A stretch of 64,000 nucleotides of DNA from the NCBI GenBank assembly GCA_016197205.1, contig JACPWG010000026.1, forward strand, positions 1 through 64,000, written 5' to 3'. The stretch is from Planctomycetota bacterium. GTDB lineage: Bacteria; Planctomycetota; MHYJ01; WSZJ01; JACPWG01. This document shows positions 13,393-20,144 of this stretch, piece after piece. A model generated the notes under the pieces. The model saw nothing but the letters and a program-made list of their open reading frames with translations. It searched no databases and was not told the origin of the DNA. The first letter of the stretch is position 1; every line of letters starts with the position of its first letter. A program made the translations under genes and the position numbers.

Positions 13393-15000
13393 TCATCGGC
13401 CGATGGCGACGAGCGCGTGCGCGGCAACGCATCGGACCGCCCAGTCGGGGTCGTGCAGCGTCCACGTCAACGCGGGCACGGCGTTTCGCGCCGCGGGCCC
13501 CATTTCGCTCAGCGCTTCGGCCACGCGCAGACGGACCATCGGGCTCGACGCAGCCAGTTCTCGAACCAAACACGCTACCGGCGCCTCGCCGTCTCCGTCG
13601 ACTCGCCACAGCGCCAGTGCGGCCTCCACGCGAAGCATGGGCAGGGGATCCGACAGGGCGCGCCGCAGGACTCCGGCCGCCCCGCGGACAGCCGGCCGCA
13701 ATTCCCCGAGATAGAGGATCGAGCGGCGTCTGAGCCACGCCTCCCGGTCTTCAACCGCCTTCGTAAGGGACGACAGCGCCTCCGCGTCCTGCGTAAGGGC
13801 GTAGAGCGCGAAGGCCGCACTCAGCCTGACATTCGCATTTCGGTCGCCGAAGGCATGCCTGAGCGCGGGTACGGCGTTCAGCGCGCGCGGACCGAGCCTG
13901 CCGAGCGCTTCGGCGGCGAGCCAACGACCGTCGGCCGCTTCGTTCGCCAGCAGCCTGCAAAGGTCGGCCTCCGCCTCGACCGCCGCGGGCCCTACCTTCC
14001 CGAGCGCGAGAATCGCCCACTCACGAATGATCCGATCATCGTCGGAGAGCGACCTGCGCAACGCCGGAACGGCTTCACCCGCCTCGGGGCCAAGCCGTCC
14101 CAAGGTCTGGATCGCGAGGCTCCGCGCTTCGCGATCGGGATGCGCGAGGGCCGCGATCAGGTCCGGCAGGACCGCTCTCGCAGCTCGGCCGAGTCTTCCG
14201 AGCGCATTCGCCGCCGAAGCCCGAGGGCCGGCGCTTCCCGCGCTCGCCAGCTCGAGCAGTGCGCGAGCCGCCTCTCCACCTTGCGGATCCGCGTTGGCAA
14301 GCGCCTGCGCAGCGGCTACCCGCACGTCCTCGCTCGGGTCGTGCAGCGCCCGCAGCAGCGCCTGCACCGCGTCGCCGGACACCGGTCCGAGGACGCCGAG
14401 CTCTTCCGCAACGATCGCACGCACCTGCTCATCGCGGTCGTTCAGCGCGGCGAGCATGGCCGGAAGCGCGGGTTGCGCCGCAGGACCCAGGCGACCCAAG
14501 GCCAGCGCAGCATTCACGCGAACGAGAAAGTCCTCGTCCCCCAGCGCCTTCCCCAGCGCCATCGCGGCCTCCGCGGCGGCGGGCCCCAACCGGAAGAGGA
14601 CGTACGCGGTGACGGACCGGGTGTCGCCGGCGCCATCCTGGAGAAGCGGGAGCAAGAGCGGCAGGAGGGCCTCGCCCCCGCGTCCAAGCGCGAAGAGCGC
14701 CTTCGCCGCATGTTCGCGCACGAGCGGGTCCGTGTCCCTCAGTGCGCCGACCAGCGCGGGGAGCGCGGCGCTCGCCTGGTCGCCGGCGCCCGCGAGCGCT
14801 TCGGCCGCCCGGACGCGCACGGCCGGATCTGGATCGCGCAGTTCCGAGACCCAACCCGGGACCTCCGGCGACCGTGCCGATCCTCCTGAAGGATTCGTCT
14901 GGGCGAAGACAAAGCCCCCGCGGAGGGCAAGCAGGCACACGCAGGCGATGCCCGTCGTCGACGCCGTTCGACGCACTCCCACCACGCCGCCGTTCCTCAC
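13393..15000 (-). CDS. Exported HEAT-repeat protein
   Basis: The GTG start at 15000 overlaps the TGA of the TPR kinase gene (GTGA overlap), with AAGGGG upstream inside that gene, so the two are translationally coupled. The 535-residue product begins with a signal-like segment (about 10-30, ending near FAQ). It then consists of about 13 HEAT-type repeats of 37-38 residues, each with a VR..AA.ALG.LG-like core and an LPAL-like second helix. Such solenoids bind proteins; no enzymatic motif is present. Because it is coupled to a membrane kinase, it may be that kinase's exported partner or scaffold. It converges with the patatin gene. Confidence 0.8.
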   Translation of the reverse strand: MRNGGVVGVRRTASTTGIACVCLLALRGGFVFAQTNPSGGSARSPEVPGWVSELRDPDPAVRVRAAEALAGAGDQASAALPALVGALRDTDPLVREHAAKALFALGRGGEALLPLLLPLLQDGAGDTRSVTAYVLFRLGPAAAEAAMALGKALGDEDFLVRVNAALALGRLGPAAQPALPAMLAALNDRDEQVRAIVAEELGVLGPVSGDAVQALLRALHDPSEDVRVAAAQALANADPQGGEAARALLELASAGSAGPRASAANALGRLGRAARAVLPDLIAALAHPDREARSLAIQTLGRLGPEAGEAVPALRRSLSDDDRIIREWAILALGKVGPAAVEAEADLCRLLANEAADGRWLAAEALGRLGPRALNAVPALRHAFGDRNANVRLSAAFALYALTQDAEALSSLTKAVEDREAWLRRRSILYLGELRPAVRGAAGVLRRALSDPLPMLRVEAALALWRVDGDGEAPVACLVRELAASSPMVRLRVAEALSEMGPAARNAVPALTWTLHDPDWAVRCVAAHALVAIGR

Positions 15001-18000
15001 TTGCCCCCCTTCCCGACCTTCTCCCGCGCGTGCGCCAGCCACTCGCGCAGCACCGGCGGCGCGTCGGCGGCGGCGGCGAGCGCGGCCTCGTAGTCGGCCA
15101 GCGCCTCCGGCCACCGCTCGAGCTTCTCCAGGACTTGCCCCCGGTTCGCGCGCACGCGCCAGGCGCCCGGGCTGCGCTCCAGCACCGAGCCGAAAGCGGC
15201 CAGTGCGCGTTCGTGAAAGGCGCGCCCGTCCCGACCCGCCGCGGCCTCCGCGTCCCCGATCGACTTCGAGCACGCCCCGCGGCACGCGAGCGCCTCGGCA
15301 TCCGCGGGCTGCCTGCGGACCAACTCGTCCCAGGCCGCGGCCGCCTGCTCCCACGCGGCGCGCGCCGCCCCGGATTCGCCGCCCCGCGCGGCCTCCGTGT
15401 CCCCCAGGCCCTGCAGCAAGAAGGCCCGACACCGCTGGACGCCCGCGTGCGAGGGATTTCGACGCAGCGCGTCCTCGTAGTCCGCGATCGCCGCGCGGAA
15501 GCCCGGCCTCGGGTCCTCTCCGCGCGCGCCGGCCGCCTCCGCAAGCGAGCGACGCGCATTTCCCCGGTTGAGGTACGCGGACACGAACTCCGGGTTGACC
15601 TTCAGCGCTTCGTCGAAATCGGCGATCGCCCGGTCGTAGCTCGGCCGCGGGTCTCCGCCGCGCGCAGCCTCGGCCTGGGCTACCTTCAGGAAAACGACGC
15701 CGCGATTGTTCAACGCCGGCGCGAAGCCCGGCAGCCGCCGCAACGCTTCGCCGAGCTCGGCGGCCGCACGCTCATACGAAGGCCGCGGGTCCTGTCGCGC
15801 CGCGCTCTCGGCGTCCCCGAGCGACTGCCAGGTCGTACCCCGGTTGACGTACGCTTCGGCGGCCTCGGGCGTCAGCCGCAGGGACTCGTCGAGGTCCGCC
15901 AGTGCATGACGGAACGACGCCCGCGCATCCGTTCCCCGCCGCGTCTCCAAGTTCCCCAGGCTCAACCACGCCGACGCCCGATTGTTGTACGCGCGACCGT
16001 TGGTCGGGTCCCGGCGCAGGGTCTCGCCGTAGTCCCGGATCGCGGCCTCGTACTCGGGCCGCGGGTCCTCCCCACGGGCCTCGAGGGCCGTGCCGAGCCC
16101 ACGGTGGGCAACGCCCCGATTCATGAGAAAGACCGGCTCCTCCGGTAATAGTCGTAGGGCCGCCTCCACCTCCTCCAACTCGCGGCGGAAGCAGGCCGCC
16201 GCGTCCCCCCCGCGCGCGGCCTCCGCCTCGCCGGCCAGGTGCCAGGCATTCGCGCGCCCGATGCGAAACGCTGTGTTCGCCGGCTCCCGGCGAATCCCCT
16301 CCGCGTAGTCCGCCACCGCCGTCGCCAGCACCGCCCTCGGGTCCACGCCTTTCCAGCGCGCCGTGACCGCGGCCCCAAACCGCAACAGTCCCCGGTGCCC
16401 GTATGCCTCCGCGTGCTCCGTGCGCACTTTGAGCACCTCGTCGGTGTCCGCGATGCCCGCTTCGAAGCGCTGCAACAGGTAACAGACCTTCGCATGGGCC
16501 AACAGCAGGTCGCACCGGAAGAAGCGCATCGCGCCGGTGGCGCCGGCGGCGGCGAGGCCCCGCTCAGCCTCCTCGTACCGCCCGCCCGCGAAGGCCTGGA
16601 TCGCCCCGAGGGCCGAGCGGAAATCCTCAGCGGTCCCGGCCCCCCAGAGGCGACTCGCAGCCGCCTGCTCCAGCAGCGTCCGCATGCGCTCGCGCAGTGT
16701 CCGGAGCTGCACCGAATCCGGCGGGGTCGCGCCGAACGCCAGCCCCCCGAGCGAGACCGTGAAGGCCGGCATCGGCAGGTCGACCAGGTAGGCCGACAAG
16801 TAGACCAGGGCTTCAAAAAAAGAACCGTAGGGGAGATCGGGATCCAGCTCGCGGGCCTTCCGCATCCAACTTCGACCTTCCTCCGGACGCGCGGCCAGCA
16901 GCCGCGCCCAGCCGGCCACCGCCAGCATGGCGGACTGCGAGGTCGCGTCCGCGGGCGTCTTTCGCATGAACTCTTCGATCGGCGGCCACAGGGCGTCCCC
17001 GGCCTTCAGCTTCGCCTCCACGCTCGTCGTCGAGTCGTAGAGCGAGCGCTCCAACTGCTCCAGCGTCGGCGCGAGCCAGGCCGCGCGCGCGAGGACGTCC
17101 TGCGCCAGGCCCGCCTTGCGGAGGGACTCGCGCGCCCCCGCTTCGGCCTCTTGCGCCTTGCGAAGGGCCGCGGCCGCCCCGTCGGCGCGTTGCTGCACCT
17201 CGTGGTCCGCCCAGTCGAACCCTTCGCGCGCGTCTGTGTTCGCACGGTCGAGGGCGAGCGCCTTCTGAAAAGCGTCCCGCGCCTCGTCCGCCCGGCCGCG
17301 CGCGCGGAACTCCCGGCCGAGGGCGAGCGCCAGCTCCGCGTCGTGCGCACGGCGTCCCCGTTCGACGACCCACTGCCCGCCCGCGATCGCCGCGACGACC
17401 ACGGCGCAGGCGACCGGCAGGACGACGGCGCGATGCTTCACGCCCTTCCGCAGGATGCGCGTCACGGCGGCGACAGGACGCGCGAGGATCGGCTCGCCGG
17501 CGAGGAAGCGCCCGATGTCCGCCGCGAGCTCGGCCGCGCTCAGGTATCGCCGGCTGAGGTCCTTTTCGAGGCACGTGAGACAGATCGTCTCCAGGTCCCG
17601 GTGCACGCGACCGGGACGACCGGCGGCCGCGGCGGCGCGACCGGGGGGCTCGGGATCTTTGGAAAGGATCGCGACGACGATCTGCACCGTGCCGGAACCG
17701 TCGAATGGGAAGCACCCGGTCAGGTATTCGTAGAGGATGACCCCGAGGCTCCAGACGTCGCTGCGCGGGCCGATCCGGTCCGCCTGCGCGTCGGCCTGCT
17801 CGGGGGACATGAAGTGCGGCGTGCCCATGACCGCGCCGGAGACGGTCATGCCGCGCGCGCCCGCGTCACGCACTTCCTTCGCCAAGCCGAAATCACCGAC
17901 ATACGGGCGGCCGGCGGCGTCGAGGAGGATGTTCGCGGGCTTGACGTCGCGATGGATGACCCCGGCCTCGTGCGCGGCGTGGAGGGCAAGCGCGACTTCC

Positions 18001-18641
18001 CGAAGGACCTCGAGGAAGCGTCGGAGGGGCAGTTTTGTTTTCGCCGAGGCGAGGCTTTCCCCCTCGATGTAGTCCATCGTGAAGTAGTGCCGTCCATCCA
18101 CGGCGCCGACGTCGTGGACCTGAACGATGCCGGGATGCCGGAGCCGGCCGGCGGAGCGGGCCTCGCGCTGAAAACGGCCGACCTCCTCTTCGGAAGGAGC
18201 GCTTTCGGCCAGCAAGGTCTTGAGTGCGACGACGCGCTCCAGCTCGCAGTCCCACGCCTTGTGGACCACGCCCATGCCACCGCGGCCGAGCTGGCGAAGG
18301 AGGCGGTAGCGGCCGAACGGCTCGACCGCGGGCGGCGTGCGCGTCGGGGGGCATGCGGCGCCGGTATCGAGTCCGGGAAGGCCCACGGACGGCGTCGCGG
18401 CGCGGAGGAGGCCGCCGGCGAGGACCGTCGGCTCGCAGGGGGTCGCGGCCCGTCGCGGAGAGGCGTCGAGAAGCGGGCGGGTATCGCCCGCCGGGCGCGC
18501 GGAAGGGCCCGGGCGAAGCGGGGCGGCCGTGGGGCCGGCGTCGGAGATCGTCACTTCCCCGTCCGGGTTCGCCGGCGAGGGCGGCGACGGGGACGACGGA
18601 TGGGGGCGGTCCTCGGGTGCTTCCCCGTGTCGATCGGACAT
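14997..18641 (-). CDS. Membrane Ser/Thr protein kinase with C-terminal TPR array
   Basis: The 1214-residue protein starts with a disordered Pro/Ala-rich tail (1-105) and a complete Hanks-type kinase domain (about 112-385). Landmarks are GRGGMGVV, Lys141, HRD at 230-232, DFG at 250-252, SPEQ and DVWSLGVILYE. One membrane helix follows at about 404-426. The rest, about 780 residues, is helical and carries TPR repeats, clearest after residue 760 as units with A..D...ALRL.P and AY.NRG cores, spaced irregularly by insertions containing ARG.DPRP. Such kinases are abundant in Planctomycetota and Myxococcota. It heads a two-gene unit with the HEAT-repeat protein. The upstream end near 18642 has only weak GGGG as a ribosome site. 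Confidence 0.9.
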   Translation of the reverse strand: MSDRHGEAPEDRPHPSSPSPPSPANPDGEVTISDAGPTAAPLRPGPSARPAGDTRPLLDASPRRAATPCEPTVLAGGLLRAATPSVGLPGLDTGAACPPTRTPPAVEPFGRYRLLRQLGRGGMGVVHKAWDCELERVVALKTLLAESAPSEEEVGRFQREARSAGRLRHPGIVQVHDVGAVDGRHYFTMDYIEGESLASAKTKLPLRRFLEVLREVALALHAAHEAGVIHRDVKPANILLDAAGRPYVGDFGLAKEVRDAGARGMTVSGAVMGTPHFMSPEQADAQADRIGPRSDVWSLGVILYEYLTGCFPFDGSGTVQIVVAILSKDPEPPGRAAAAAGRPGRVHRDLETICLTCLEKDLSRRYLSAAELAADIGRFLAGEPILARPVAAVTRILRKGVKHRAVVLPVACAVVVAAIAGGQWVVERGRRAHDAELALALGREFRARGRADEARDAFQKALALDRANTDAREGFDWADHEVQQRADGAAAALRKAQEAEAGARESLRKAGLAQDVLARAAWLAPTLEQLERSLYDSTTSVEAKLKAGDALWPPIEEFMRKTPADATSQSAMLAVAGWARLLAARPEEGRSWMRKARELDPDLPYGSFFEALVYLSAYLVDLPMPAFTVSLGGLAFGATPPDSVQLRTLRERMRTLLEQAAASRLWGAGTAEDFRSALGAIQAFAGGRYEEAERGLAAAGATGAMRFFRCDLLLAHAKVCYLLQRFEAGIADTDEVLKVRTEHAEAYGHRGLLRFGAAVTARWKGVDPRAVLATAVADYAEGIRREPANTAFRIGRANAWHLAGEAEAARGGDAAACFRRELEEVEAALRLLPEEPVFLMNRGVAHRGLGTALEARGEDPRPEYEAAIRDYGETLRRDPTNGRAYNNRASAWLSLGNLETRRGTDARASFRHALADLDESLRLTPEAAEAYVNRGTTWQSLGDAESAARQDPRPSYERAAAELGEALRRLPGFAPALNNRGVVFLKVAQAEAARGGDPRPSYDRAIADFDEALKVNPEFVSAYLNRGNARRSLAEAAGARGEDPRPGFRAAIADYEDALRRNPSHAGVQRCRAFLLQGLGDTEAARGGESGAARAAWEQAAAAWDELVRRQPADAEALACRGACSKSIGDAEAAAGRDGRAFHERALAAFGSVLERSPGAWRVRANRGQVLEKLERWPEALADYEAALAAAADAPPVLREWLAHAREKVGKGGK

Positions 18642-18710: not shown

Positions 18711-20003
18711 CTACTCGGGCATGCGCGATTCGAACACCGCGGTCAGCGGAAACCGGCGCGTCACGCCGTGCGCCCGATCGGCGCGAGGATACACGGCGTC
18801 GAACGTCGCCCGAAGGGAGCGGGGCGCCGGCTCGGCCGCGGCGTAGGTGAGGACCGCCGTGAAAGGGCCTTCGAACGAAAACCCGTCCGGCCCCTCGTCG
18901 GTGAGGCGCACGGTTCCGCGCAGGAGGGAGTAGCGGGTGCCGTCCTTCGTCCCCGCAGGCTCGAGCGTGAGCGGCCCGTCCGCGCGGGCGACGCGCCAGG
19001 CAAACATCGTCTGCTTGTTTTGCCGTTCCATGACGCCCGGCGGGTAGACCTTGCGGAAGCAGGGGAGCAGTGCTTCGGCCCCGAGCGTGCGCGCCGCCTC
19101 CGGGTACTCGAGCGCTTTCCAGGTTTCCGGCGGCGGCTCGACGATTTCGACCACGGGCGCAAAATAGGCGGGCATGCCGGGGTCGTCGAGGCGCACGAAG
19201 ATCCGGATCGCGCGGGCCGCTCCGGAGCGATCGGGGAGCCGCAGCTCGCGCGGCGCACCGGGCGCTTCGTGCAGGCCGAGGGTTTCGCGGACGCGGCGGA
19301 GTCGGTCGGCGAAGTAGCGTGGCATCGTCTCCTGCCACGGCCCGTTCCAGCCCCGGCCGGGCATGGAGTCCCATGCGTCCACGAAGCGGGAGCGGGAGTC
19401 GAGGACGACGAGCTTCACGTTGCTGCGGCCAGCGGCCGGGCCTCCGCCCCCGGCGCCTCCTCCACCTCCCCCTGCGCCTGGGCCGGGGCCCAGGCCCGGT
19501 CCGCCGGGCGAAGGGCCTGCGCCTGGGGCGGCTCCGGGGGCGGGCCGCCCTCCCGCCTGATCAATGTACTCGCGCAGCTCGGGCGGTGGATTGTCATCCC
19601 TGTGCCCGTACCAGAACGTCACGATGAAGGGTTGCAAGAGCCCGACGACCGTCGGGTCGGCGAGGGCGTTTCCCCTCACCTGGGTGGCGGTCGCTCAGCA
19701 GTGGCCCGTGAAGAGGTCGCCATAGCGTGCGTGCACCGCGATGACGCAGAGCGGCCGATTCTCCTTCGCGGCGCGGCTCTTCGCCTCTTCGAACGTGCGC
19801 GCCCAATCCAGCCTGTACATCACGAGGTCTTCGTCGAGGGGTCGGGCCTCGCGGAAGTGGGAGAGGGCCGTCTGCGCGTCCTCGCTCTGGGCCAGGGCCG
19901 GCGCGGACATCCCGAGGGCAAGCACGACCGCCGCAGCGGCGTCAAACGAGCGATTTATTTTCCTACGGGCCCTAAGTACCGCTCCACGGAAGTCGGTGAC
20001 CAA
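18711..20003 (-). CDS. Exported thioredoxin-like protein, candidate selenoprotein (in-frame UGA)
   Basis: Two abutting open frames, 20003-19698 and 19694-18711, are in the same frame and separated only by TGA at 19697-19695. Joined, they give a signal peptide (AAAAVVLALGMSAPALA), a thioredoxin-like front end (DWARTFEEAKSRAAKENRPLCVIAV), then FTGHC-UGA-ATATQVRGNALADPTVV and LLQPFIVTFW, a Gly/Pro-rich linker and a second conserved region to the end. A redox motif belongs where Cys-UGA falls, so selenocysteine is plausible. A hairpin at 19679-19660 fits bacterial SECIS rules. The downstream half has no ribosome site before its first GTG. The true start is unclear: a MITE covers the 5' end, and TTG 20003 is a guess. 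Alternatives are a nonsense mutation or a sequencing error. Confidence 0.6.
19660..19679 (-). promoter_or_regulatory. SECIS-like hairpin downstream of the in-frame UGA
   Basis: On the minus strand GTGAGGG (19679-19673) pairs with CCCTCGC (19666-19660) over seven base pairs including one G-U, closing the loop GAAACG. The loop starts with G and lies 22 nt after the UGA. As I recall the bacterial SECIS model, it asks for a G in the first two loop positions and 16-37 nt spacing. GC-rich DNA makes chance hairpins common, so this supports the selenocysteine reading without proving it. Confidence 0.45.
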
Positions 20004-20144
20004 TAGCCGAAGGCAAGTTGGGCCGCCCGCGAGGCGCGCGAGCGAGGCGTAGTAACGGAGAACTACGTCGAGCGAGCGCAACAAAGCGGGCGGCCGAAAT
20101 CGCCGAGGAAATCGGTCACCCAATTCTGTGGGGCGGTACTAAGG
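19971..20144. mobile_element. 174-bp MITE-like element with 31-bp terminal inverted repeats
   Basis: The ends pair over 31 positions with 5 mismatches (left end CCTAAGTACCGC, right end GCGGTACTAAGG; inner ends GGTGACC and GGTCACC). The centre forms a second long hairpin with GGCCGCCCGC and GCGGGCGGCC arms. No transposase is encoded and no clean target duplication is visible. The left end lies just outside the signal peptide of the candidate selenoprotein gene, so the element may have replaced its 5' region. Confidence 0.7.

Follow-up and report, generated by a model that had tools for sequence, protein, structure and literature searches.

Several described groups of proteins approach the one studied here. 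The VPGUxxT selenoproteins, types 1 and 2 (NF041382 and NF041383, with curated cut-offs of 350 and 275 bits, respectively), carry selenocysteine (Sec) in a Thioredoxin_7-like domain and have no Cys at the CxxC partner position; the Trx7/PDZ selenoprotein (NF041199) has a Thioredoxin_7-type domain with Sec, in the motif CxxU, and a PDZ domain; in selenothioredoxin and other thioredoxin-like selenoproteins of the UxxC type, Sec occupies the N-terminal nucleophile position of the thioredoxin fold, with a resolving Cys in the same motif. The Thioredox_DsbH/DUF255 proteins (PF03190) are Cys proteins. A 2026 inventory of 119 prokaryotic selenoprotein families contains no thioredoxin-like family with the motif described below and does not mention Planctomycetes (PMC13188914), in which selenoproteins were already known (PMC4807772).

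The locus lies in a window of 64,000 nucleotides, which is the whole stretch of planctomycete DNA that was analysed (contig JACPWG010000026.1). An earlier note, made from the sequence alone, had singled out two open frames in phase, split only by a TGA, as a candidate selenoprotein in a thioredoxin-like gene. Frame inspection confirms this arrangement: on the minus strand the frame from 20003 to 18711 is interrupted only by TGA 19697-19695, ends in TAG 18713-18711, and on read-through gives a product of 430 residues, in which a signal-peptide-like start is followed by ...DLFTGHC-U-ATATQVRGNALADPTV... (local motif GHC-U-ATATQ), a Gly/Pro-rich insert and a C-terminal part. The signal peptide (19884..19966, minus strand) was recognized by sequence inspection from its basic residues, the stretch AAAAVVLALG and the end ALA-Q; similar N-terminal segments are present in the relatives, and export of the window protein is predicted from these features. 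No ATG is present upstream of the signal peptide in the window gene; candidates for the start codon are TTG 20003-20001, a later GTG, a non-standard start in AAAATAAATCGC near 19960, and ATG 19910-19908, from which the residues are numbered here. In the surroundings of the gene an inverted repeat with 19-nt arms, 84% complementary and 55 nt apart, can be seen upstream (20012-20104), and a Ser/Thr protein kinase gene with TPR repeats (14997-18641, minus strand) begins about 70 nt past the selenoprotein gene on the same strand.

The TGA (19695..19697, minus strand), here read as Sec72 directly after Cys71, is found at the same codon in homologues from a dozen other planctomycete genomes, 34-58% identical to the window protein. 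Five of the six other genomes of the same order have such a gene, with the context GHCUATATQARG; further copies, in G007, G021, G027, G163, G199, G284 and G342, came from profile searches that covered 23 genomes of the class and 392 of the phylum. Each family copy that covers the site in these searches carries the TGA, and neither Cys nor any other sense codon was found there among the window-family copies of the sampled genomes; the carriers span several taxonomic families and reach beyond the class. Among five close relatives Ka/Ks ranges over 0.24-0.34 in the part after the UGA and 0.10-0.48 in the part before it, or about 0.3 on both sides: the downstream values argue that the part after the UGA is translated and selected, with purifying selection that, judged from these ratios, is as strong as before the UGA. 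The copies in G007 (L026:2922-3973) and in the public MAG contig JACPTZ010000008.1 (L033) share a deletion and a frameshift just before the UGA, representing either decay or an assembly error; in G284 the copy lies on a degraded contig end and has two TGAs.

The family belongs to a wider group of thioredoxin-like genes. A search of the phylum with two paralogues of the order as queries (motifs ECU and HCU) matched 60 of 392 genomes, most matches having exactly one TGA, and the group as a whole comprises some 78 UGA loci spread over about 45 genomes. In all 78 distinct loci the TGA has the same place: it follows a KP[IL] strand and precedes an 'SD/AD' motif by about 12 codons, in contexts as varied as ECULGG, GCUAAG, GCTUNNGVLDR and RCUVFAGAAREAVFS; an alignment of 30 members, trimmed to the region of the site, has no invariant column other than that of Sec. 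The window genome itself has at least 13 members, eight of them strong. Seven further strong members, each having a single UGA at the active-site position and a hairpin after it (G000 contigs C131:60650, C151:15755, C15:57751, C13:129653, C28:45266, C45:95322 and C60:52069; L109, L143-L148), were matched by no NCBIfam model, and five weaker thioredoxin-like UGA genes (C102:6377, C139:4369, C74:72394, C22:2128 and C59:38617; L149-L152, L154) include several of the UxxC type, for example EWUGACKQM. Cys occupies the Sec column in G157 (RCCLGGR), G031 and G355, in none of which a convincing tRNA-Sec was found; it also stands there in more distant proteins, which have SCANSR or CxxC. Two orthologues from the same genus, 51% identical, differ in this respect: the one from G128 (L049) has Sec in a genome with tRNA-Sec, the one from G157 (L050) has Cys in a genome where tRNA-Sec was not found. 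The UGA column, which the earlier note had proposed to inspect for Cys or Sec, is thus Sec throughout the window family and Cys in more distant homologues.

The same assembly contains all the genes of the selenocysteine machinery that the note had listed: selA (541 bits), selB (333 bits), selD (399 bits; itself UGA-containing, with GAGUACK) and selC, the tRNA-Sec (80.6 bits, anticodon UCA). The genes adjoining the window gene end in TGA, which indicates that the code is not reassigned. Considering genomes at least 90% complete, tRNA-Sec is present in 24/24 UGA carriers versus 98/193 others (Fisher p = 6e-7, with relatedness ignored; the counts were taken by hand from the results table at a limit of E < 1e-10).

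A bacterial SECIS element is expected to have its apical loop 16-37 nt after the UGA, with a G in the first two loop positions. Downstream of the UGA in the window gene (19659..19680, minus strand) folding reveals a hairpin made of GGUGAGGG (19680-19673), the loop GAAACG (19672-19667) and CCCUCGCC (19666-19659), whose loop lies 22 nt after the UGA and starts with G. The stem begins at the 15th nucleotide after the UGA, that is, with a spacing of 14 nt; position and loop are as first described, and the stem, given earlier as 7 bp, has 8 bp including one U-G pair. The significance of this hairpin was evaluated against synonymous-codon shuffles encoding the same peptide for 77-78 related genes, with relatedness ignored in the statistics. 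In the 77 genes the 42 nt after the UGA are more stable than in the shuffles (mean z -0.78, p = 1e-10 to 2e-13), and along the gene the energy reaches its minimum directly after the UGA; the best hairpin has a mean of -9.2 kcal/mol versus -5.7 in the shuffles (p = 4e-13, 77-78 genes), and G is found in the first two loop positions in 90% of the related genes versus 51% of the shuffles. The hairpin of the window gene is 1.2-1.9 SD stronger than its own shuffles. At the level of the 12-member family the covariation, tested in the hairpin register of the window gene, is moderate (80% of cells paired, with 11-46 of 500 shuffles reaching the observed values, depending on the measure), and RNAalifold with the 12 sequences returns a weak consensus of -5.3 kcal/mol in a slightly different register; what supports the case for a SECIS element statistically is therefore the superfamily-wide test against synonymous shuffles. 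The Rfam SECIS_1 model has no match in the window genome, nor in any of the control genomes, and for this reason the miss is uninformative; a scan around the gene by Rfam E-value gave only chance matches.

These observations can be used to weigh other explanations of the in-frame TGA. By one of them, the TGA would stem from a sequencing error or a strain-level nonsense mutation, both considered in the earlier note, or would signal a pseudogene in decay. This would fit a draft assembly and the state of some copies, with two TGAs at the degraded contig end of G284 and a deletion beside the UGA in G007 and JACPTZ010000008.1. It is extremely improbable: the TGA recurs in a dozen genomes from several families and classes, which is enough to discard the error or strain-level mutation, Ka/Ks values are near 0.3 downstream, the same column is seen in about 78 related loci, and an error shared by independent assemblies is not credible. 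The UGA might alternatively be a true stop between two genes, the second started by itself or by translational coupling. The downstream frame has one possible start of its own, GTG 19679-19677, located 15 nt after the UGA; this codon is GCG in five relatives and thus is not a conserved start. A split at this point would also separate strand 1 of the thioredoxin-like fold from helix 1, and distant homologues are a single uninterrupted frame with Cys at the position: we regard the existence of two genes as very improbable. Finally, code reassignment or suppression with another amino acid such as Trp would be compatible with a UGA that lies in frame and whose read-through we infer, but with TGA ending the neighbouring genes, Cys as the homologous residue, a complete Sec machinery and UGA carriers that match the tRNA-Sec-positive genomes, there is hardly any chance that it applies. 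The gene almost certainly encodes a selenoprotein that belongs to a new family and relies on known machinery for its decoding.

An AlphaFold2 model of the window protein (mean pLDDT 81.3) contains a thioredoxin-like domain at residues ~26-211 (19278..19835, minus strand), for which the best PDB match by Foldseek is the Thioredox_DsbH protein Bab1_2064 (7tkv; probability 0.99, E = 0.007). Following strand 54-59, Sec72 opens helix 72-79, and in the model it therefore lies where the first helix begins, which is the nucleophile position of thioredoxin. Residues 121-161 (19428..19550, minus strand) form a Gly/Pro-rich, low-complexity insert, absent from the relatives and predicted to be disordered. 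The C-terminal beta-rich domain (18723..19238, minus strand), delimited by alignment, AlphaFold2 and Foldseek, is conserved within the window family and has no match when the full model is compared by Foldseek with the PDB and with viral structures. Apart from C71 and U72, the family has no conserved Cys/Sec residue: there is no second redox Cys of the CxxC or UxxC type, UATA being found there instead, and the vicinal Cys71-Sec72 pair is immediately preceded by an invariant His70.

Very probably the window gene encodes an exported selenoprotein, with a thioredoxin-like and a C-terminal beta-rich domain, whose Sec, decoded by SelB and the hairpin, acts as the nucleophile of a periplasmic redox reaction. 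SelB carrying Sec-tRNA(UCA) would recognize the hairpin beginning 15 nt after the UGA, and insertion of Sec at the UGA would allow the full-length protein to be made. The selenol, which takes the place of the attacking thiol of thioredoxin-type enzymes where the first helix begins, would then serve as nucleophile in a periplasmic thiol/selenol redox reaction, and Cys71, the sole other conserved Cys, is likely to be the resolving partner, through a selenenylsulfide; we infer, in other words, a thioredoxin-like mechanism that operates without a CxxC or UxxC pair. The presence of UATA in place of CxxC, and the consequent lack of a UxxC motif, also suit a selenoprotein that is not a thiol-disulfide oxidoreductase and has instead a one-Sec peroxidase-like, sulfur-transfer or metal-binding role: the invariant His70 together with the vicinal Cys-Sec could bind a soft metal, and SaoL, HgcA and MbdU, which are mercury-related and metal-binding families, have CU motifs as well. 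Such a role is possible but rather unlikely, as Sec is located exactly at the thioredoxin nucleophile position and the closest modelled relatives are Thioredoxin_7 and DsbH-type domains, although neither of these two observations settles which reaction is catalyzed.

We lean towards a broader view of the phylum, in which Planctomycetota would hold a large radiation of exported thioredoxin-fold selenoproteins, most of it covered by no model, with Sec replacing the CxxC pair entirely and the active site often consisting of a vicinal Cys-Sec pair alone. The window family would be one of several subfamilies that are obligate-Sec and have no Cys form and, with a dozen or more members in single genomes, the group would form an unrecognised selenium-dependent periplasmic redox network. 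Automatic annotation ends such genes at the UGA, and would leave a redox group of a common environmental phylum invisible or filed as fragments; the window gene, as an example, would ordinarily be split in two. From the copies compared here the window family appears to be without Cys versions, and the predictor deep-Sep, by its own account, may filter out selenoprotein families of this kind (PMC12013277). The same-genus pair of G128 (Sec, with tRNA-Sec) and G157 (Cys, without it) offers a ready test of what selenium contributes.

With respect to known families, the suspicion that this one was not a described selenoprotein holds against both NCBIfam (June 2026), in which the window protein has no match, and the 2026 inventory; Pfam gives only sub-threshold matches for the window protein, and at E 0.001 NCBIfam matches none of eight paralogues in the window genome. 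The family and its expansion appear to be new, the recoding machinery and the fold being known, with an earlier, unnamed listing possible in the candidate table of PMC4807772. Among the listed families the nearest are the VPGUxxT and Trx7/PDZ proteins. Weak matches to NF041383 are seen for 16 of 30 domain members from the wider group (best E 1.3e-6). These related proteins fall far below the 275-bit cut-off, which no protein in 23 genomes of the class exceeds, and the window protein, with its motif GHCUATAT, matches neither VPGUxxT model. It likewise leaves the NF041199 model (>300 bits and CxxU) unmatched and has CUxx in place of CxxU. Thioredox_DsbH/DUF255 proteins, which 14 of the 30 domain members match weakly, provide the best structural match to the N-terminal domain, but their C-terminal part is different and the TM-score over the whole chain is low. 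With selenothioredoxin and the other UxxC types, members of which are also encoded in the window genome, the window protein shares Sec at the N-terminal nucleophile position; unlike them, it has no resolving Cys in a UxxC motif and carries a Cys directly before Sec instead. The family thereby adds to the thioredoxin-like selenoproteins an active-site layout that the 2026 inventory does not list for them, in which Cys immediately precedes Sec at the thioredoxin nucleophile position and no CxxC is present.
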